From contig JAEZNV010000119.1 in the NCBI GenBank assembly GCA_023441725.1, positions 1-6,481 on the forward strand: 6,481 nt of DNA, in the 5' to 3' direction. The position numbers and the translations under genes are program-made. Every line of letters starts with the position of its first letter. Position 1 is the first letter of the stretch. Below, piece by piece: positions 1-6,481 of the stretch. The stretch comes from Actinomycetes bacterium (GTDB taxonomy: Bacteria > Actinomycetota > Coriobacteriia > Coriobacteriales > Coriobacteriaceae). The notes below the pieces were generated by a model. It worked only from the letters and a program-made list of their open reading frames with translations, did not search any database and was not told where the DNA came from.

Positions 1-108
1 ATTAATGCGCGAAAGGTCGCCGCTTTCGGCAAGCTCGCTGGCAAGTGCCTGGCGAAGGGCACGCTGCGAGCGAAGGGACCGGCGATCGCATTTCTCGAGC
101 TGGGACAA
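1..108 (-). CDS. TetR/AcrR-family transcriptional regulator, N-terminal fragment (cut by window edge)
   Basis: On the minus strand, a TTG codon at 108-106 opens a frame of 36 codons that runs off the left edge. It begins MSQLEKCDRR and continues SLRSQRALRQALASELAESG, ending DLSRIN at the edge. The pattern of an Arg-rich start followed by R-x-x-R-A-L-x-x-A-L and a short acidic/Gly turn is the first helix of TetR-type DNA-binding domains, which then normally continue into the helix-turn-helix. The helix-turn-helix itself is outside the window, so the family call rests on the first helix only. The start is well fixed: a perfect AAGGAGG lies 4 nt upstream, an in-frame TAA sits five codons upstream of TTG, and no other start codon lies between. 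Inverted repeats just upstream (130-174) suggest autoregulation. Target and ligand are unknown. Confidence 0.62.
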   Translation of the reverse strand, partial: MSQLEKCDRRSLRSQRALRQALASELAESGDLSRIN

Positions 109-112
109 GCGT

Positions 113-119
113 CCTCCTT
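113..119 (-). promoter_or_regulatory. Ribosome binding site that fixes the TTG start of the TetR-like gene
   Basis: The minus strand reads AAGGAGG, then ACGC, then TTG. The match to the anti-Shine-Dalgarno sequence is complete, with a 4-nt gap. Because an in-frame stop lies just upstream, this site decides for the TTG at 108-106. Confidence 0.7.
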
Positions 120-129
120 GTTACTCAAC

Positions 130-174
130 CTGTGCGCTATTGCACAGTGCGAGTATTATTGCACACCGTGTGCA
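130..174. promoter_or_regulatory. Two operator-like dyads upstream of the TetR-like gene
   Basis: Positions 130-147 read CTGTGC, six bases, GCACAG. Positions 160-174 read TGCACAC, one central base, GTGTGCA, a perfect 7-bp dyad. The two share the direct repeat TATTGCACA at 138-146 and 157-165, 19 bp apart (a little under two helical turns). They lie 20-65 bp upstream of the TetR-like start, where an autoregulated TetR gene would carry its operator. On the minus strand an AATAAT preceded by TGC sits between them as a possible extended -10 element, but no convincing -35 is visible. That these are binding sites is inference from symmetry and position. Confidence 0.45.
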
Positions 175-200
175 TCAACACGTAAAGGCAATATTTTAGA

Positions 201-229
201 TGTGACGAAGGGACAGTCCCTTTGTCACA
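201..229. repeat. 29-bp near-perfect inverted repeat (REP-like or terminator-like)
   Basis: Left arm TGTGACGAAGGGAC (201-214), central A (215), right arm GTCCCTTTGTCACA (216-229), with one mismatched pair out of 14. The element ends directly against the TAA stop of the HAD gene (232-230). It could form a hairpin at the end of that transcript, but no T-run follows on the minus strand, so it is not a canonical intrinsic terminator. The pair G207/T223 would be a G-U wobble in plus-strand RNA and an A-C mismatch in minus-strand RNA. Its core (AAGGGACA, TGTCCC-like, CTTTGT) resembles the hairpin at 5164-5202, which suggests a dispersed extragenic palindrome family. Confidence 0.6.
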
Positions 230-1093
230 TTATTCGATGACGGTGCGGGAGCTTTGCTTGCGCATGGTGGCGAGCATGTGTTTGGGAACGGCGTGGACCA
301 TGCAGCTGCCGATGGTCGCGCTCGCGGCAGCCTTAGCTGCATCGCTAGCGTTTTTGGTCGCGTAGCTGTGACGGAAGCGTTTGAGCATGGCAATGTCGTT
401 ACCGCCGTCGCCGTAAACCGCGACCTCGTCCTCGGCAATACCGTAGTAGCCCGCCAGCCAGGCCACGCTCTCGCCCTTGTTGCACGCCACGTCCGTGATC
501 TCGAACATCACCGGATCGAACGGTGCGTTGACCACGCGGTCCGATCGCTCGGCCAAATATGCTTTAAGGTCACGCTCCAGCTCGGGCGAGGTCACGCGAC
601 AGTTGATCTTGCACACATCGTGGCGCAGGATGTCACCGATCGACTGGTCGAAATACTGCTCCTCGTGATACCCGCCACGTGCACGCATGCCGCGCATCAC
701 GATGCGCTTGATAGGACTGTCCTTTTTAAAGCCCGCCTGGTGCATCTCGAACGAACCGCTCGAAAACATGCCATCGGGCGTGGAGCAGTCGAAGCAAATG
801 TCCGGAAACTCCTTGAGCAGCTCCTCGATGATCTGCGGGTCGATGGTCCAGGTCTTGAGCACATCGCCATGGCTGTCGCGCACGATGGACCCATTGGAGC
901 AGCATGCGTCAAGCGTCAGGCCCGTAAAGCCATGCTCGCCGATCGGCAGCGTCGAGCGTCCGGTCGCGGGAACCACATGCAGGCCGGCCTCGGTCAGCTC
1001 GCGAATGGCACGGCGAATGGTCCCGTCTGCCTCGTGCAGGGCATTCAACAGCGTTCCGTCTAAGTCACTCGCAAACATCTTGATCATGGGCAT
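230..1093 (-). CDS. Cof-type HAD-superfamily hydrolase (sugar-phosphate or nucleotide phosphatase-like)
   Basis: A 287-residue cytoplasmic protein with all four HAD motifs in the order expected for the Cof/YidA group (cap type C2B). Motif I is DLDGT at residues 10-14, with nucleophile D10 and acid/base D12. Motif II is the Thr of ATGR (T44). Motif III is K206 in NKGES. Motif IV is GDGGND at 228-233. SNG at 66-68 is also typical. Length matches the family (about 260-290). Such enzymes use Mg2+ and an aspartyl-phosphate intermediate to dephosphorylate small metabolites; the substrate cannot be read from sequence. AAGGAG (1098-1103) lies 4 nt before the ATG at 1093. A second ATG at 1087, giving MIKMFASDLDGT, has a 10-nt gap and matches the usual Cof N-terminus, so it may be the true start. 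TACAAT at 1121-1116 could be a -10 element, without a clear -35. The gene is separated from its upstream neighbour by a hairpin at 1129-1158. Confidence 0.9.
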   Translation of the reverse strand: MPMIKMFASDLDGTLLNALHEADGTIRRAIRELTEAGLHVVPATGRSTLPIGEHGFTGLTLDACCSNGSIVRDSHGDVLKTWTIDPQIIEELLKEFPDICFDCSTPDGMFSSGSFEMHQAGFKKDSPIKRIVMRGMRARGGYHEEQYFDQSIGDILRHDVCKINCRVTSPELERDLKAYLAERSDRVVNAPFDPVMFEITDVACNKGESVAWLAGYYGIAEDEVAVYGDGGNDIAMLKRFRHSYATKNASDAAKAAASATIGSCMVHAVPKHMLATMRKQSSRTVIE

Positions 1094-1128
1094 GCCTCTC
1101 CTTCGTCTGCACGATATTGTAGACGAGA

Positions 1129-1158
1129 ACGGGCGCGCCCCGAGAGAGGCGCGCCCGT
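1129..1158 (-). terminator. GC-rich hairpin, probable terminator of the HD/CmpB/P-II-remnant unit
   Basis: ACGGGCGCGCC (1129-1139) pairs perfectly with GGCGCGCCCGT (1148-1158), giving 11 bp around an 8-nt loop. Read on the minus strand the stem is followed by TTCTCGTCT, a weak T-enriched run; on the plus strand there is none. It lies 16 bp past the stop of the P-II remnant and 25 bp before the HAD ribosome binding site, so it most likely ended the ancestral P-II transcript. Termination strength is uncertain given the poor T-tract. Confidence 0.6.
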
Positions 1159-1174
1159 CAGGCGAAAGATTGCC

Positions 1175-2367
<1,193 letters not shown>

Positions 2368-2370
2368 CGT

Positions 2371-2928
2371 CTACCCTCTCCTCTTTTCACTCGAATCTTT
2401 GCTCGAGCCGTCGCTCGAGCCCTCGCTCAAATCGTTCGCGTCGTCTTTGCGCGGCAGACGGCCGGCGACCGTCTCGCGCAGCGCGCACCATTTATCTGCC
2501 AGGCATACAATCCAAGCCTCACGACACGTCGGCGGCACCGGCACCAGCGGAAACATATGCCGCACGATAATATTCCGCTCGCGCGACGTCAGCTCAAAAT
2601 CTTCCTCCGCACGTGCCAGGGCAAAAAACGGATGCCGAAATCCGTGCAGTCGATGGCTCGGGTCGGGGTCGTGCCAATCGTAGAGAAAGTAATCGTGTAA
2701 CAGGGCTCCGCGCAGCAGCGAGGCACGGTCGACCGAAATGCCAGCACGGCCCAAGCGCTCGGCAAAGGACAGGCTCGCCCGCGCTACCGAAGTCACATGT
2801 GCATAGACCGTCACGTCACCATGCTGGATAAACTCGTGCGTCAGGTCCAAGCGGCCTGCCTGGACCAGCTGGCGGGCGGCATCGTCGACCTCGCGCGCGA
2901 TTTTCTCGGCACGAACGGCACTGGACAT
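2371..2928 (-). CDS. HD-domain protein (predicted metal-dependent phosphohydrolase)
   Basis: Start taken at the ATG 2928, giving 185 residues, because AAGGAGG (2933-2939) lies 4 nt upstream. An in-frame start 15 codons further up (2973) would place this site inside the gene. Likely HD-domain metal ligands are H44, the H78-D79 pair in LLHDYFLYDWHD, H99 and H124, and D145 in CLADKW. HGFRHP, RNIIVRHMFPLVP and EAWIVCLADKWCAL mark a small, widespread family of stand-alone HD proteins. HD proteins usually hydrolyse phosphomonoesters or phosphodiesters of nucleotides; no substrate can be inferred. Residues 161-185 form a Ser/Asp/Lys-rich, probably disordered tail encoded by a short 12-bp repeat. The gene ends 3 bp before the CmpB-type gene, and I infer that the two products may work together. 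No convincing promoter was seen upstream. Confidence 0.85.
   Translation of the reverse strand: MSSAVRAEKIAREVDDAARQLVQAGRLDLTHEFIQHGDVTVYAHVTSVARASLSFAERLGRAGISVDRASLLRGALLHDYFLYDWHDPDPSHRLHGFRHPFFALARAEEDFELTSRERNIIVRHMFPLVPVPPTCREAWIVCLADKWCALRETVAGRLPRKDDANDLSEGSSDGSSKDSSEKRRG
2374..2382 (-). promoter_or_regulatory. Ribosome binding site supporting the GTG start of the CmpB-type gene
   Basis: The minus strand reads AGGAGAGGG, then TAGACG, then GTG. The site overlaps the final codons of the HD gene, and its spacer contains that gene's TAG stop, a layout typical of translational coupling. Confidence 0.6.
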
Positions 2929-2932
2929 GCTG

Positions 2933-2939
2933 CCTCCTT
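2933..2939 (-). promoter_or_regulatory. Ribosome binding site that fixes the ATG start of the HD gene
   Basis: The minus strand reads AAGGAGG, CAGC, ATG. The perfect match at this position makes the downstream ATG (2928) the start rather than the upstream in-frame ATG at 2973. Confidence 0.7.
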
Positions 2940-3014
2940 CCAGCGGCTCACGGCGGCAAACCACGGACTGCACGCATTGAATAAAATCATCATCGAATTT
3001 ACTAGTATGGCATC

Positions 3015-3032
3015 GGACAAAACGTTTTGCCC
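3015..3032. promoter_or_regulatory. LacI-family-like operator palindrome in the divergent intergenic region
   Basis: CAAAACGTTTTG (3018-3029) is a perfect 12-bp palindrome centred on CG. One mismatched pair further out it continues with GG and CC, giving 18 bp in total. AAACGTTT cores with a central CG are characteristic of LacI/GalR-type operators, including CcpA and PurR sites. It lies between the divergent HD gene (start 2928) and DXS-like gene (start 3157), so it could control either or both. No clear -35/-10 pair was found next to it, and the cognate regulator is not in the window. Confidence 0.4.
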
Positions 3033-3104
3033 CGCCAGTTGGCGAATTACCGCGCCGCCGTCACATATCAAACGCCAAAATGTGCGAGACTGTTTTGTGC
3101 AATT

Positions 3105-3129
3105 GTGCCGGCCGAGGGAGCGCCGGCGC
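3105..3129 (+). promoter_or_regulatory. Leader hairpin before the DXS-like gene
   Basis: GTGCCGGC (3105-3112) can pair with GCCGGCGC (3122-3129) around a 9-nt loop, with one G-U pair in RNA. It sits 11 nt before the GGAG (3141-3144) used for the DXS-like start. It may be a simple stabilising leader hairpin or a weak attenuator. No T-run follows, so it is not an intrinsic terminator. Confidence 0.35.
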
Positions 3130-3156
3130 TCGATTCGCATGGAGTAACCCACAACG

Positions 3157-4938
3157 ATGCTGCTTACGCAAACGACAACGCCCGAGGACGTCAAGGCTCT
3201 TAATCGCGCCGAGCTCCCGCAGCTCTGCGACGAGATTCGCCACGCCATCCTCGAAAGCTCCGCCGCTGTCGGCGGACACGTTGCCCCCAACCTGGGCGTC
3301 GTTGAGCTCACGGTCGCGCTCCATCGCGTGTTTAACTCCCCCACCGACAAAATTGTCTTTGACGTGTCGCACCAGACCTACGCCCACAAGGCGCTGACTG
3401 GGCGCGCGTACACCTATATCGATCCGGAGCGTTATGGTGAGGCTTCTGGCTTTGCCAATCCCGACGAGTCCGAGCACGACCTGTTTGCCATGGGGCATAC
3501 CTCGACCTCGGTGAGCTTGGGCTGCGGCCTTGCCCACGCGCGCGACCTGGCGGGTGACACGTATAACGTCATTACCGTTATTGGCGACGGTTCGCTTTCG
3601 GGCGGCTTGGCGTTTGAGGGCTTTAACAATGCCGCCGAGCTCGGCAGCAACCTGATCATCATCGTCAACGATAACGACCAGTCCATTGCCGAGAACCATG
3701 GCGGCCTCTATCGCAATCTGGCCGAGCTGCGCGCCAGCAACGGCACCTGTGAACGCAACGTTTTCCGCGCGATGGGGCTCGACTACCGCTATCTGGACGC
3801 CGGTAACGATGTGTTGGCCCTCGTCGATGCGCTGCAGGAACTGCGCAATATCGATCATCCCATCGTGCTGCACGTCTCCACCGCCAAGGGCAAGGGCTTT
3901 GAGCCGGCCCAGAGCGACCCCGAGCGCTGGCACCACGTGGGTCCGTTTGACATGGCGACTGGGCGCAAGCTCTGCCCGGGCCATCCGAGCGAGCCTGCAC
4001 CGCGCACCTATGCCGACATTACGGGCGAGGCGCTCAGCGCCGCCATCGAGCGCGATCCGCAGGTCGTGGGCATCACGGCCGCCACGCCCTACATTATGGG
4101 CTTTACACCCGAGCTTCGCGCTGCCGCCGGCAAACAGTTCGTCGATGTGGGCATTGCCGAGGAGCACGCCGTGACCTTTGCCACCGGGCTTGCGCGCTCG
4201 GGCGCCAAGCCAGTCTTTGGTGTGTACGGCACGTTTTTGCAGCGCGCCTACGACGAGCTGTGGCACGACCTGTGCCTCAACGATGCCCCCGCAACCATCT
4301 TGGTGTTTGGCGCGTCGATCTTTGGCACCACATCCGAGACGCACCTCTCATTCTTTGATATTTCCATGCTGGGCGGTCTTCCCAACATGCACTACTTGGC
4401 GCCGGCCTGCATGGAGGAATATCTGTCCATGCTGAGCTGGTCGCTCGACCACCGCGAGCATCCCGTGGCAATCCGCGTACCGGGCATCGGCCTGGTGAGC
4501 CGTCCCGACCTTGCGCCCGCCGAAGACACCGACTACAGCACCGTTCGCTACAACGTGGTGCGTCAGGGCCGCGACGTTGCCGTGCTCGCGCTCGGCGATT
4601 TCTTTGAGCTGGGCGAGCGCGTGGCAAACCGTCTGACTGCCGAGTACGGCATCGAGGCCACGCTCGTCAACCCGCGCTTCGCAACCGAGCTCGACCGCGA
4701 GTTCCTCGACAGCCTTGCCGCCGAGCATCGCGTCGTCGTCACCCTCGAGGACGGCATCTTGGACGGCGGCTGGGGCGAGCGCGTAGCATGTTATCTGGCA
4801 TGCACGCCGTTGCGTACGCGCACCTTCGGCATCGCCAAGGGCTTCCCCGACCGCTACGACCCCAACGAACTGCTCGCTCAAAACGGCATGACGGTCGAGA
4901 ATATGGCCGCCGAAGCCGTGAGGCTACTCAACGAGTAA
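3157..4938 (+). CDS. dxs: 1-deoxy-D-xylulose-5-phosphate synthase family protein (divergent, DXS-like)
   Basis: A 593-residue thiamine-diphosphate enzyme, slightly shorter than E. coli DXS (620). The N-terminal cofactor domain (about 5-270) has GGH (39-41), SHQTYAHK (71-78), GHTSTS (113-118) and the Mg/ThDP motif GDG (143-145) with N173. The pyrimidine domain (about 284-445) has GIAEEHAV (332-339, catalytic E335) and GTFLQRAYD (358-366). A transketolase C-terminal domain fills about 465-590. DXS condenses pyruvate with glyceraldehyde 3-phosphate to make DXP, the entry to the MEP isoprenoid route and a precursor of thiamine and pyridoxal. By eye, E. coli R420, D427 and R478 align with G385, T392 and G443, whereas Y392, R398 and H431 are kept (Y357, R363, H396). 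The symbol therefore marks the family; true DXS activity is doubtful. MLLTQTTTPEDVKAL fits the family N-terminus; GGAG (3141-3144) is 12 nt upstream, a long gap. Monocistronic, ending in a terminator. Confidence 0.9.
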   Translation: MLLTQTTTPEDVKALNRAELPQLCDEIRHAILESSAAVGGHVAPNLGVVELTVALHRVFNSPTDKIVFDVSHQTYAHKALTGRAYTYIDPERYGEASGFANPDESEHDLFAMGHTSTSVSLGCGLAHARDLAGDTYNVITVIGDGSLSGGLAFEGFNNAAELGSNLIIIVNDNDQSIAENHGGLYRNLAELRASNGTCERNVFRAMGLDYRYLDAGNDVLALVDALQELRNIDHPIVLHVSTAKGKGFEPAQSDPERWHHVGPFDMATGRKLCPGHPSEPAPRTYADITGEALSAAIERDPQVVGITAATPYIMGFTPELRAAAGKQFVDVGIAEEHAVTFATGLARSGAKPVFGVYGTFLQRAYDELWHDLCLNDAPATILVFGASIFGTTSETHLSFFDISMLGGLPNMHYLAPACMEEYLSMLSWSLDHREHPVAIRVPGIGLVSRPDLAPAEDTDYSTVRYNVVRQGRDVAVLALGDFFELGERVANRLTAEYGIEATLVNPRFATELDREFLDSLAAEHRVVVTLEDGILDGGWGERVACYLACTPLRTRTFGIAKGFPDRYDPNELLAQNGMTVENMAAEAVRLLNE

Positions 4939-4939
4939 G

Positions 4940-4976
4940 AAAACCTCCGCAAGGGAAGCGCCCCTGCGGAGGTTTT
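4940..4976 (+). terminator. Rho-independent terminator of the DXS-like gene
   Basis: AAAACCTCCGCA (4940-4951) pairs perfectly with TGCGGAGGTTTT (4965-4976), and an inner GGG/CCC tightens the loop. TTTTAATTTT follows the stem. It begins 1 nt after the TAA stop. The A/T flanks could let it act in both directions. Confidence 0.92.
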
Positions 4977-4995
4977 AATTTTCGCGACGCGATTA

Positions 4996-5130
4996 TCTCA
5001 ATCTGTAACATCTAGGACCCGAATTCCCGTCTAACTGTTACAGATTGAGACATTCGAATTCTCCTGAAGAGAAAATCTCAATCTGTAACAGCTACTCGGC
5101 AAAAAAGGCTGCAGATGTTACAGATTGAGA
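4996..5130. repeat. Array of four 15-bp repeats in alternating orientation with a 40-bp period
   Basis: TCTCAATCTGTAACA occurs at 4996-5010 and 5076-5090; its exact reverse complement TGTTACAGATTGAGA occurs at 5036-5050 and 5116-5130. Starts are 4996, 5036, 5076 and 5116, so the period is exactly 40 bp and every spacer is exactly 25 bp. The three spacers are not similar, apart from a GAATTC in the first two. Orientation alternates, so any neighbouring pair can form a 15-bp stem with a 25-nt loop, either as two side-by-side hairpins or as one central hairpin. The array sits between two terminator-like hairpins and codes for nothing convincing. It could be a multi-site protein-binding platform, a recombinase or transposase target, or a structured RNA. 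It is not a CRISPR array. Function unknown. Confidence 0.9.
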
Positions 5131-5163
5131 CAGAACAGTAAGGCATGCCGCCGCATCGGCCAG

Positions 5164-5202
5164 AACCACCACAAAGGTGCCTGTCCCCTTTGTGGTGGTT
5201 TT
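5164..5202. terminator. Strong hairpin with T-tract (terminator-like; possible REP-family element)
   Basis: AACCACCACAAAGG (5164-5177) pairs perfectly with CCTTTGTGGTGGTT (5187-5200) around the 9-nt loop TGCCTGTCC. TTTT (5199-5202) follows on the plus strand, overlapping the end of the stem. It could terminate any transcript crossing the repeat array. Its core (AAAGG, TGTCCC, CTTTGTG) resembles the inverted repeat at 201-229, and a partial copy (CCTGTCCCTTTTTGTTAGG) appears at 5308-5326. This suggests a dispersed palindromic element used here as a terminator. Confidence 0.6.
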
Positions 5203-5369
5203 CGCTGCCGCCATTATAGCGACCGCCGTGAGCGATCATGTCGTCCGCGAAACACTATTTCAGCTGTAATAATCGACGTTTGCCCAGATAAAACCTGCCA
5301 AAATAAACCTGTCCCTTTTTGTTAGGTACAATAACCCATAAGGTAGGTATGTTTCTGAGTTATTTCGTG
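5203..5369. other. Non-coding stretch between hairpin and promoter
   Basis: Part of the 504-bp gap between the DXS-like and binding-protein genes. No frame here looks like a protein. It holds the partial repeat at 5308-5326, the direct repeat AAACCTG at 5291-5297 and 5305-5311, and weak AT-rich hexamers (TTATAG near 5214, AATAAT near 5268) without good -35 partners. Nothing else is supported. Confidence 0.5.
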
Positions 5370-5399
5370 TTGACCCATTTGAGCGCGATGGGGTATAAC
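5370..5399 (+). promoter_or_regulatory. Sigma-A-type promoter of the binding-protein gene
   Basis: TTGACC (5370-5375) and TATAAC (5394-5399) are separated by 18 bp and lie 44 bp before the ATG at 5443. This predicts a leader of roughly 37 nt. CCCAT (5374-5378) and ATGGG (5388-5392) form a small dyad overlapping the -35 and filling most of the spacer, which could be an operator. AAAGG (5429-5433) is the ribosome binding site, 9 nt before the ATG. Confidence 0.75.
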
Positions 5400-5442
5400 T
5401 CTACTCAACCGCTAGGGATTTTATTGAGAAAGGTGTTCTACC

Positions 5443-6438
5443 ATGAGCAAGAACCTCTCCCAGCAGGTCATTCTCGACCGCCGCGGCTTCGTTGCCGCCA
5501 CCTTCGCAACCGTCGCCGGCCTTGGTCTTGCCGGCTGCTCCGACACCAGCGCCGAGGCCGACAAGGGTTCCGCCGCCGGCTCCTCCAAGAGCTCCGAAGA
5601 TACCGAGGCTTCCACCACGCTCGACGCCAAGGCATTCGACAAGCTCGTCGACAACGGCCCCAAGGCCGATGACGACGCCATCGCTGCCAGCACCTGGGCC
5701 ACGGCCGTTAAGGACGCCGGCGTCTTTAAGATCGGTGGCGTTCAGACCTCCACGCTCTTCTCCCTCCTCAACGAGAAAGACGGTCAGACCCGCGGCTTCG
5801 ACGCCGGTATCGCACAGCTCCTGTCCAACTACATTCTGGGCGAGAACAAGGTCGAGATCACCCAGGTGACCTCGGACACGCGCGAGTCCGTCCTGCAGAA
5901 CGGCCAGGTCGATGCCGTCTTTGCCACCTACACCATCACTGACGAGCGCAAGAAGCTCGTCTCCTTCGCCGGCCCCTACTACTACACCCAGCAGGCCATC
6001 CTGGTGCTCGCCGATAACGACGACATCAAGGGCGTCGATGACCTGGCCGACAAGAACGTCGCCGTCCAGTCCGGCTCCAACGGCCCCGCTATCCTGGAGG
6101 AGTTCGCCCCCAAGGCCAGCCAGCAGGAGTTCAAGACCGCCGCGGAGGCCCGTCAGGCACTCCCGCAGGGCCGCGTTGACGCCTACGTCATCGATAACAA
6201 CATGCAGCAGAGCGCCCTGGTCCGCGAGCCCGGCAAGTACAAGATCGCCGGCAAGCCCTTCGGCAGCAAGGAGCCCTATGGCATCGGTCTGCCGCTCGAT
6301 TCCGACGGCGTCGCCTTTGTCAACGACTTCCTCAAGAAGATCGAAGACGATGGTACCTGGACCGAGCTGTGGCAGATCTGCATCGGCGACCGTACGGGCG
6401 ACACCAATGTTCCCGAGCTGCCCGAGATCGGCGCCTAG
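5443..6438 (+). CDS. Polar amino-acid ABC transporter substrate-binding lipoprotein (glutamate/glutamine type)
   Basis: A 331-residue SBP_bac_3-family protein that would capture an amino acid outside the membrane and deliver it to an ABC permease. The signal region (1-32) has a twin-arginine-like RRGF (13-16), a hydrophobic stretch and the lipobox LAGC with C32 as the lipidated residue. A Ser/Ala/Glu-rich linker (about 33-60) follows. The binding fold shows GVFKIGG (93-99), RGFDAGIA (117-124), R147-ESVLQNGQVDAVFATY, ITDERKKLVSFAGPYY (165-180; R169 aligns with the Arg that holds the ligand carboxylate in HisJ-like proteins), and DAYVIDNN (246-253). ITDERKK with PYY is closest to GluB/GlnH-like proteins, but the ligand is inferred. 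Where relatives have GFDVDIA, this one has Gly at 122. Strong preference for C-ending codons suggests high expression. Permease and ATPase genes may lie downstream, outside the window. Confidence 0.88.
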   Translation: MSKNLSQQVILDRRGFVAATFATVAGLGLAGCSDTSAEADKGSAAGSSKSSEDTEASTTLDAKAFDKLVDNGPKADDDAIAASTWATAVKDAGVFKIGGVQTSTLFSLLNEKDGQTRGFDAGIAQLLSNYILGENKVEITQVTSDTRESVLQNGQVDAVFATYTITDERKKLVSFAGPYYYTQQAILVLADNDDIKGVDDLADKNVAVQSGSNGPAILEEFAPKASQQEFKTAAEARQALPQGRVDAYVIDNNMQQSALVREPGKYKIAGKPFGSKEPYGIGLPLDSDGVAFVNDFLKKIEDDGTWTELWQICIGDRTGDTNVPELPEIGA

Positions 6439-6481
6439 GCAGCGAGCCTGGTAACAGCCGCAACGAAACCATACGGAAACG

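Follow-up and report, generated by a model that had tools for sequence, protein, structure and literature searches.

A genome-wide family of modular repeat arrays with inverted 15-bp repeats at fixed spacing in the Collinsella aerofaciens group: candidate protein-binding sites

The DNA analyzed here, called the window throughout, is a stretch of 6,481 nucleotides from an Actinomycetes bacterium of the Coriobacteriaceae (assembly GCA_023441725.1, contig JAEZNV010000119.1, positions 1 to 6,481). Its gene order (HAD hydrolase, ABC permease, HD protein, dxs, glutamate-binding protein) is the one annotated in Collinsella aerofaciens NZ_OY725717.1. This record of 900 kb is labelled plasmid 6 and is probably a part of the chromosome, or a rearranged assembly, as dxs and genes for ribosomal protein and RNA polymerase lie on it. 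Downstream of dxs four exact copies of TCTCAATCTGTAACA were found in alternating orientation, with a step of 40 bp from each copy to the next (Table 1). The three 25-bp spacers between them are all different in sequence. The 55-bp inverted pair occurs 2 times in the window, compared to a mean of 0 in 200 dinucleotide-preserving shuffles. A preliminary description of the window had already reported four identical alternating 15-mers at an exact 40-bp period with unique spacers of exactly 25 bp, and the coordinates bear this out. The spacers are, however, not all equivalent, since their composition profiles define two classes, the inner spacers (5011-5035 and 5091-5115) and the inter-unit linker. 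The same description had placed the array between two terminator-like hairpins. Both are real inverted repeats, but a terminator scan gave a single terminator-like site in this region (4959-4943, minus strand). The left hairpin is probably the terminator of dxs. The right one belongs to a second family of hairpins with a GGGACAG/CTGTCCC core, found in the window at 200-235, 5159-5205 and 5290-5325.

Table 1. Features in and around the repeat array, in positions of the window.
Feature	Position	Strand	Basis
dxs-type gene (1-deoxy-D-xylulose-5-phosphate synthase), upstream of array	3157..4938	+	ORF; annotation of orthologous NZ_OY725717.1
Hairpin directly after dxs, left neighbour outside array	4940..4976 (arms 4940-4955/4961-4976)	+	inverted repeat
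Unit 1, dyad-symmetric module: inverted 15-mer pair and 25-bp inner spacer	4996..5050	.	exact repeats and shuffles
15-mer copy 1	4996..5010	+	exact match
TAG in unit 1 spacer; mirror CTA at 5031-5033	5013..5015	+	column preference
Central A/T triplet, unit 1 (unit positions 26-28)	5022..5024	.	column profile and orthologue differences
15-mer copy 2; junction of missing 81-bp unit within copy 2 and the shared CA after it	5036..5050	-	strain comparison
25-bp inter-unit linker; sequence poorly conserved save A/T next to repeats, length fixed (period 80/81)	5051..5075	.	profile, orthologues
Unit 2, begins 80 bp after unit 1; counterpart of unit 3 of sister strains	5076..5130	.	orthologues
15-mer copy 3	5076..5090	+	exact match
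Central A/T triplet AAA, unit 2	5102..5104	.	column profile and orthologue differences
15-mer copy 4	5116..5130	-	exact match
Hairpin CCACCACAAAGGTGCCTGTCCCCTTTGTGGTGG, member of another dispersed repeat family	5159..5205 (arms 5159-5177/5187-5205)	.	inverted repeat
Glutamate ABC transporter substrate-binding protein gene, downstream of array	5443..6438	+	ORF; annotation of orthologous NZ_OY725717.1

The pattern of 15-mer, 15-45 free bases and reverse complement was searched in 84,980 prokaryote species genomes. A total of 95 stretches matched. The 80 listed by title were all from Collinsella, and the other 15 clustered with these by their flanking DNA. Nearly all listed pairs had exactly 25 free bases although 15-45 were permitted. 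Allowing up to 3 mismatches at 25 free bases (reversed-pattern control: 0), 22 of the 43 genomes of the Collinsella genus group contained 26-67 units each, 3 contained one and 18 none. An order-level set of 395 genomes, including these 43, yielded 26 matching genomes with a single addition, a genome whose two units lie close to a contig end; beyond the genus group 1 of 352 further genomes of the order had any unit. A model built from 50 units found 42 units in the complete genome G006, equal to the pattern count. Of 22 other genomes searched with it, 5 had 1-2 units, with a 35-bp spacing in one of them. In a further order-level sample of 60 genomes with stricter filters, just one of these model-found genomes was recovered again. 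In the one complete genome 17 arrays were mapped. The viral contigs and phages searched gave no array match, and the plasmid records a single one, the 900-kb C. aerofaciens replicon. With many loci in many species, the block is not a random occurrence in a single genome. A literature search on Collinsella repeats, alternating dispersed repeats and the 15-mer gave no apparent description among the matches listed, most subscription papers being outside reach. Isolated units in array-poor genomes, which lie near contig ends in G037 and G244 and have a spacing of 35 bp instead of 40 bp in G029, are suspected to reflect transfer or contamination. Two further genomes, G038 and G020, are array-free except for a single unit (L164:8939-8993 and L165:8386-8440) with a common left flank. 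The G038 unit adjoins clpB, with an N-terminus very similar to that of C. aerofaciens clpB, while G020 has other genes after the unit. Judged by this similarity, the stretch beside clpB in G038 was possibly acquired by transfer.

The anatomy of the family was derived from 199 distinct array sequences with up to 4 mismatches per repeat, some of them possibly cut by locus ends. The building block is a dyad-symmetric unit of one 15-mer, 25 bp and the inverted 15-mer. Over 536 units the distance from repeat to repeat was 40 bp in 527, 41 bp in 5 and 39 bp in 4 cases. The distance from unit to unit was 80 bp (208), 81 bp (122) or 79 bp (7), so that 330 of 337 fell on 80/81 bp. Arrays usually consist of 2-4 units (one unit in 17 arrays, two in 70, three in 80, four in 25, five in 3 and six in 4). 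Another copy within 330 bp was found for 672 of 676 15-mers with at most 1 mismatch, most loci having been picked for arrays. The 40-bp period had been called close to four helical turns, which the data do not establish; at 10.5 bp per turn it corresponds to 3.8 turns, and 80 bp is no whole number of turns either. The profile of 288 aligned units runs from A/T at unit positions -4 to -2 through the 15-mer, TAG at 17-19, G+C at 21-24 and A/T at 26-28 to G+C at 30-33, CTA at 35-37, the inverted 15-mer and A/T at 56-58. It persisted when the set was thinned to 129 units of unlike spacer sequence, in which the center was mostly AAA (50) or TTT (47). The spacer is anti-palindromic: positions 26 and 28 pair in a fraction of 0.11 of the units compared to 0.47 expected, and all inner Watson-Crick pairs except 19/35 remain below the expectation from column frequencies, i.e., the spacer avoids self-pairing. 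Within the 15-mer itself just a short TGTTACA/TGTAACA near-palindrome is found, and a longer stem takes two copies.

Spacers at different loci share little beyond this composition code with its central A/T triplet. They differed on average at 12.74 of 25 positions, compared to 12.69 in a simulation from the column profile (n = 5599 pairs), and are thus on average no more alike than simulated ones; very similar spacers (up to 5 differences) at different loci were few, yet commoner than simulated (0.25% versus 0.06%). This match to the simulation indicates that geometry and composition are kept and the filler is not, in agreement with the earlier proposal of selection on geometry with largely free spacers. 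For orthologous units, 1092 pairs were compared whose spacers differ at 1-7 of 25 sites. These pairs are not mutually independent, and their selection by spacer similarity depresses the spacer values, but not the contrast within the spacer. Differences per site amounted to 0.021 in the 15-mer (its four variable positions left out), compared to 0.027 for the central triplet, 0.109 for TAG/CTA and about 0.20 for the remaining spacer. The linkers reached 0.425, a value which takes in pairs with possibly non-orthologous flanks (162 pairs share the unit and neither flank). From these differences, sequence constraint extends from about -4 to +58, and beyond that the length alone is kept. The module is thus about 63 bp long (unit -4 to +58), with two inverted 15-mers 40 bp apart, TAG/CTA and an A-tract at the dyad in G+C-rich DNA. 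Recent tandem duplication was considered as the origin of the arrays and rejected, as units within an array were nearly as unlike (11.7 differences) as units of different arrays (12.3); 8 near-identical unit pairs were found inside one array.

In four slices of annotated C. aerofaciens DNA (about 190 kb), all 10 arrays were intergenic according to a gene table that is incomplete and without RNA genes. Using greedy ORF calls for 126 distinct arrays, 65 were found between co-directional, 25 between divergent and 24 between convergent genes, with 12 at a locus edge. These calls took in spurious antisense ORFs, and the placement was rechecked against the real annotation. In the G006 sample, co-directional, divergent and convergent gaps numbered 7/5/3 with and 38/26/17 without an array, which are similar mixes. 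With 134 of 262 neighbor genes pointing toward the array, gene ends and starts are about equally represented. Among the neighbors of arrays are dxs, gltB, clpB, lac operons, genes for an Nramp transporter and a heavy-metal ATPase, and others. The idea of a regulon is not favored, as no common theme was apparent among the neighbor proteins listed. The arrays of the 95 stretches and of G006 fell into 19 flank clusters (duplicated operons being merged by the clustering), 13 of which include a G006 array, so array positions appear to be mostly inherited.

Several local arrangements were observed in addition. Three consecutive lac-type operons (PTS, 6-phospho-beta-galactosidase, LacI-type regulators) at L300:12000-26500 each end with an array, and these arrays were probably copied together with the operons. 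Looping between G006 arrays a few kb apart was considered and dropped: four of them share flanks and by orthology sit in duplicated lac operons. A gene for a 358-aa DUF559-like protein (L299:27153-28229, minus strand; also in L010, L024, L033, L047, L070 and L073) has an array on either side in all 7 loci where it occurs, the upstream array ending 21-34 bp before the start codon. These seven represent one orthologous locus, and 6 were retrieved via the array search. The gene is absent there in the array-bearing G006 and L034, and an NRAMP gene is likewise bracketed in several strains. For these reasons the DUF559-like protein was kept as a lead and not as the partner of the arrays. Its Pfam match is below threshold (E 0.022), and C-terminal E/D/K residues are invariant among 25 close homologues; 120 of 426 matches were listed, the organism missing for most. 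NCBIfam and PADLOC gave no match and PDB no significant one, and the predicted model, with a mean pLDDT of 45, is too poor to use.

The inverted repeats could also act at the level of RNA, in that transcript hairpins would terminate, stabilize or process mRNA, and a structured small RNA had been among the roles first suggested. The predicted RNA fold of the array is very stable (z -9.1), as that of any inverted-repeat array must be. In co-directional arrays GU pairs exceed AC pairs modestly (74 versus 55). Arrays are somewhat rarer in divergent gaps of the larger set (25/114) than expected from the G006 background (26/81), which is the direction predicted for an RNA element, while within G006 they are as common there as expected (5/15 versus 26/81). 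The covariation from arm to arm is slight, with 18 of 500 shuffles reaching the observed value, and the most variable arm pair is A-U in 22 units, G-C in 10, G-U in 8 and unpaired in 10. At position 4 the two arms agree at 0.64 versus 0.49 (0.58 versus 0.49 in the thinned set). Arms facing each other across linkers show at position -1 a likeness of 0.28 versus 0.52 at random (thinned: 0.34 versus 0.54), and position 4 is less clear in this respect. TTTT was found within 10 nt of the unit end in just 84 of 676 cases, a count that stands without shuffle control, and the window gave no match at the gathering threshold of the Rfam 15 covariance models. An RNA element would, moreover, not need a fixed loop length. 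Based on the weak covariation, the little or no orientation preference and the fixed loop length, double-stranded DNA is likelier the selected object than RNA, and an RNA element is considered highly improbable.

Among the roles first suggested, a protein-binding platform fits best, with a putative binder. We assign a probability of roughly 60% to the reading that the block belongs to a family of modular double-stranded DNA sites spread through the genomes of the C. aerofaciens group and is a candidate protein-binding array, with an architectural function being the likelier one. A putative protein would bind each 15-mer, the bound pairs would bend the DNA at the central A-tract, and neighboring modules would touch and join into one nucleoprotein complex. 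Paired binding, bending and module contact in such a complex would account for a constrained length (fixed 40 bp and 80/81 bp) with free filler. The complex may bend or bridge DNA or insulate transcription units from each other. Such an architectural role is likelier than a classical regulon switch, because the neighbor genes share neither function nor orientation. Against this model stands the covariation slightly above shuffles, which is also expected from a hairpin or from arm-to-arm conversion. The period of 80 bp, the excess of very similar spacers at different loci, the somewhat rarer divergent gaps of the larger set and the array-free alleles at L006 (see below) also count against it. 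Furthermore, common ancestry of the arrays together with exchange among them could explain the likeness of the 15-mers in the absence of any function. C. aerofaciens lives as a common commensal in the human gut, and to our knowledge its experimental genetics is little developed. Arrays that keep their spacing and a shape-like composition code while the filler drifts offer a natural experiment on a protein-DNA complex reading geometry, and two units (about 140 bp) would be a clear bait for finding the putative binding protein.

The arrays resemble several known repeat systems in part. BIMEs are regularly spaced repeats of alternating orientation, of which BIME-1 binds IHF and BIME-2 gyrase, according to the accessible part of their description (PMC2817692). 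The Collinsella arrays share with the BIMEs described there the regular spacing, the alternating orientation, the intergenic location and the tandem units; for BIMEs of E. coli and others the same part names several proteins that bind the repeats. Unlike BIMEs, they have one fixed geometry, spacers that share little between loci and no palindromic REP, the 15-mer being no imperfect palindrome with a short stem-loop. They are also without link to a RAYT gene and almost confined to one Collinsella group. REPINs, in the available portion of their description (PMC3116915), are inverted doublets of a conserved 16-mer in which spacer length matters and compensatory changes are common. An inverted pair of a conserved word with constrained spacer length is common to both. 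REPIN spacers, as far as that portion goes, form a hairpin with compensatory changes, whereas the Collinsella spacers avoid pairing. Most REPINs are singlets, in contrast to at least 2 units in 182 of 199 Collinsella arrays, for which no cognate RAYT was found. GTAG/CGTC-tagged palindromic repeats are short, dispersed and often arranged as dimers or clusters, as stated in the accessible sections of a publication (PMC3733652) with no mention of Collinsella in its main text. In the Collinsella arrays no short-loop stem with a GTAG or CGTC end tag was seen. CRISPR arrays have constant repeats and differing spacers of near-constant length. The Collinsella repeats differ from these in alternating in orientation instead of being direct; their spacers show a composition code and are for the most part passed on at fixed loci.

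These likenesses raise the possibility of a REPIN/BIME-like population, i.e., small repeats spread by a transposase in trans and now passively kept or lost. Inverted doublets of a 15-16-mer with constrained spacer in alternating, intergenic arrangement agree with the published descriptions in the parts seen, and Y1-transposase genes were found in all 10 array-bearing genomes searched. Such genes were, however, also found in 15 of 21 array-poor genomes, and none of 25 Y1-transposase loci from the 10 array-bearing genomes (Pfam search, about 1.5 kb on each side, less at contig ends) contained the 15-mer. Of 24 Y1 loci with a central ORF, 7 are flanked by inverted repeats of at least 11 bp (6 with GGGACAG, none with the 15-mer) and 17 showed none. 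At one locus filled and empty alleles were observed: at L006:1419-1633 and L213-L227 the array lies between near-identical 12-16-bp direct copies, the right one being the arm of a CTGTCCC-type hairpin. The array is absent in 8 of 15 genomes, which keep one copy of the bracketing sequence (G016, at a contig end, being uncounted). Any given array thus appears dispensable. The repeat at the empty site may equally be a deletion scar. In the tree of the flanks, in which G016 was wrongly labelled empty, the empty state takes three changes, and well-supported branches force two of these. A second locus examined showed no clear bordering repeat of the 12-16-bp kind. With interiors and spacers differing between loci, the arrays also do not look like a known IS or MITE with constant interior. 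Considering in addition the hairpin-avoiding spacers and the locations mostly common to strains, spread by a transposase in trans is regarded as unlikely. The arrays may work like BIMEs, but with no 15-mer at the Y1 loci searched and with spacers that avoid a hairpin they are not classified as such.

Comparison of repeat number and spacers between strains revealed turnover of whole units. At the dxs locus three units were found in 11 of 13 strains compared. The window is without the second and L060 without the third unit, both losses being in register; the 81-bp unit missing from the window is kept in 11 of 13 strains and, as unit 2, in L060. The third unit at this locus occurs with unlike spacer alleles between matching linkers. 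Among 832 unit pairs with similar outer flanks, 87 had unlike spacers, at 13 places or, with a stricter flank cutoff, at 7. A reverse-complement spacer was seen in 7 of the 832 pairs, all from one place, L059 compared to seven other loci. At L059:560-614 the 25-bp spacer is an exact inversion relative to four of them (L036, L050, L051 and L086), with outer flanks nearly unchanged. In three distinct strict cases half a spacer was exchanged between one 15-mer and the central A-tract. For 2 of 6 half-spacer alleles a copy was found elsewhere, and the fast evolution of the linkers confounds the control used for shared half-spacers. At the array-gene-array locus G006 is without the 358-aa gene and four units of L047, and the junction lies inside the 15-mer; the single unit of G006 has the left side of the left and the right flank of the right L047 array.

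Exchange therefore takes place at the 15-mers. The earlier suggestion of a recombinase target agrees in part with the unit losses, spacer swaps and the inverted spacer at the repeats, but no recombinase was found linked to the arrays. Should a recombinase recognize the inverted 15-mers, spacers, units and occasionally genes would be exchanged at the arrays. The same products are expected from template switching at short repeats and from rare illegitimate recombination between repeats of 15-17 bp. In chloroplast genomes, inversions of small loops flanked by short inverted repeats are known. As inversion is limited to one locus and so few half-spacer alleles have copies elsewhere, recombination sites as the sole explanation are considered quite unlikely, even more so than spread by a transposase. 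In the protein-binding array favored here, the 15-mers would double as exchange points, with modules lost, swapped and, at one locus, inverted. It is a doubtful extension of this reading that the arrays represent a new chromosomal site system, in which dyad-symmetric modules are held at fixed pitch via a putative Collinsella DNA-binding protein, and the 15-mers also act as exchange points where 25-bp and 11-bp fillers, modules and flanked genes are inverted, swapped or lost with the geometry kept. This would amount to a selected structural code edited by a dedicated recombination activity. Site-directed exchange versus template switching as the source of the inverted spacer and the spacer swaps is testable by sequencing.

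A final observation concerns the GGGACAG/CTGTCCC hairpins. Their core was found within 200 bp of 30 of the 126 arrays, but both families are intergenic, and no association is claimed. Repeats related to these hairpins flank several Collinsella RAYT-type transposase genes (L175, L182-L184, L191 and L192), and for this reason the hairpins look like the true REP family of the genus.
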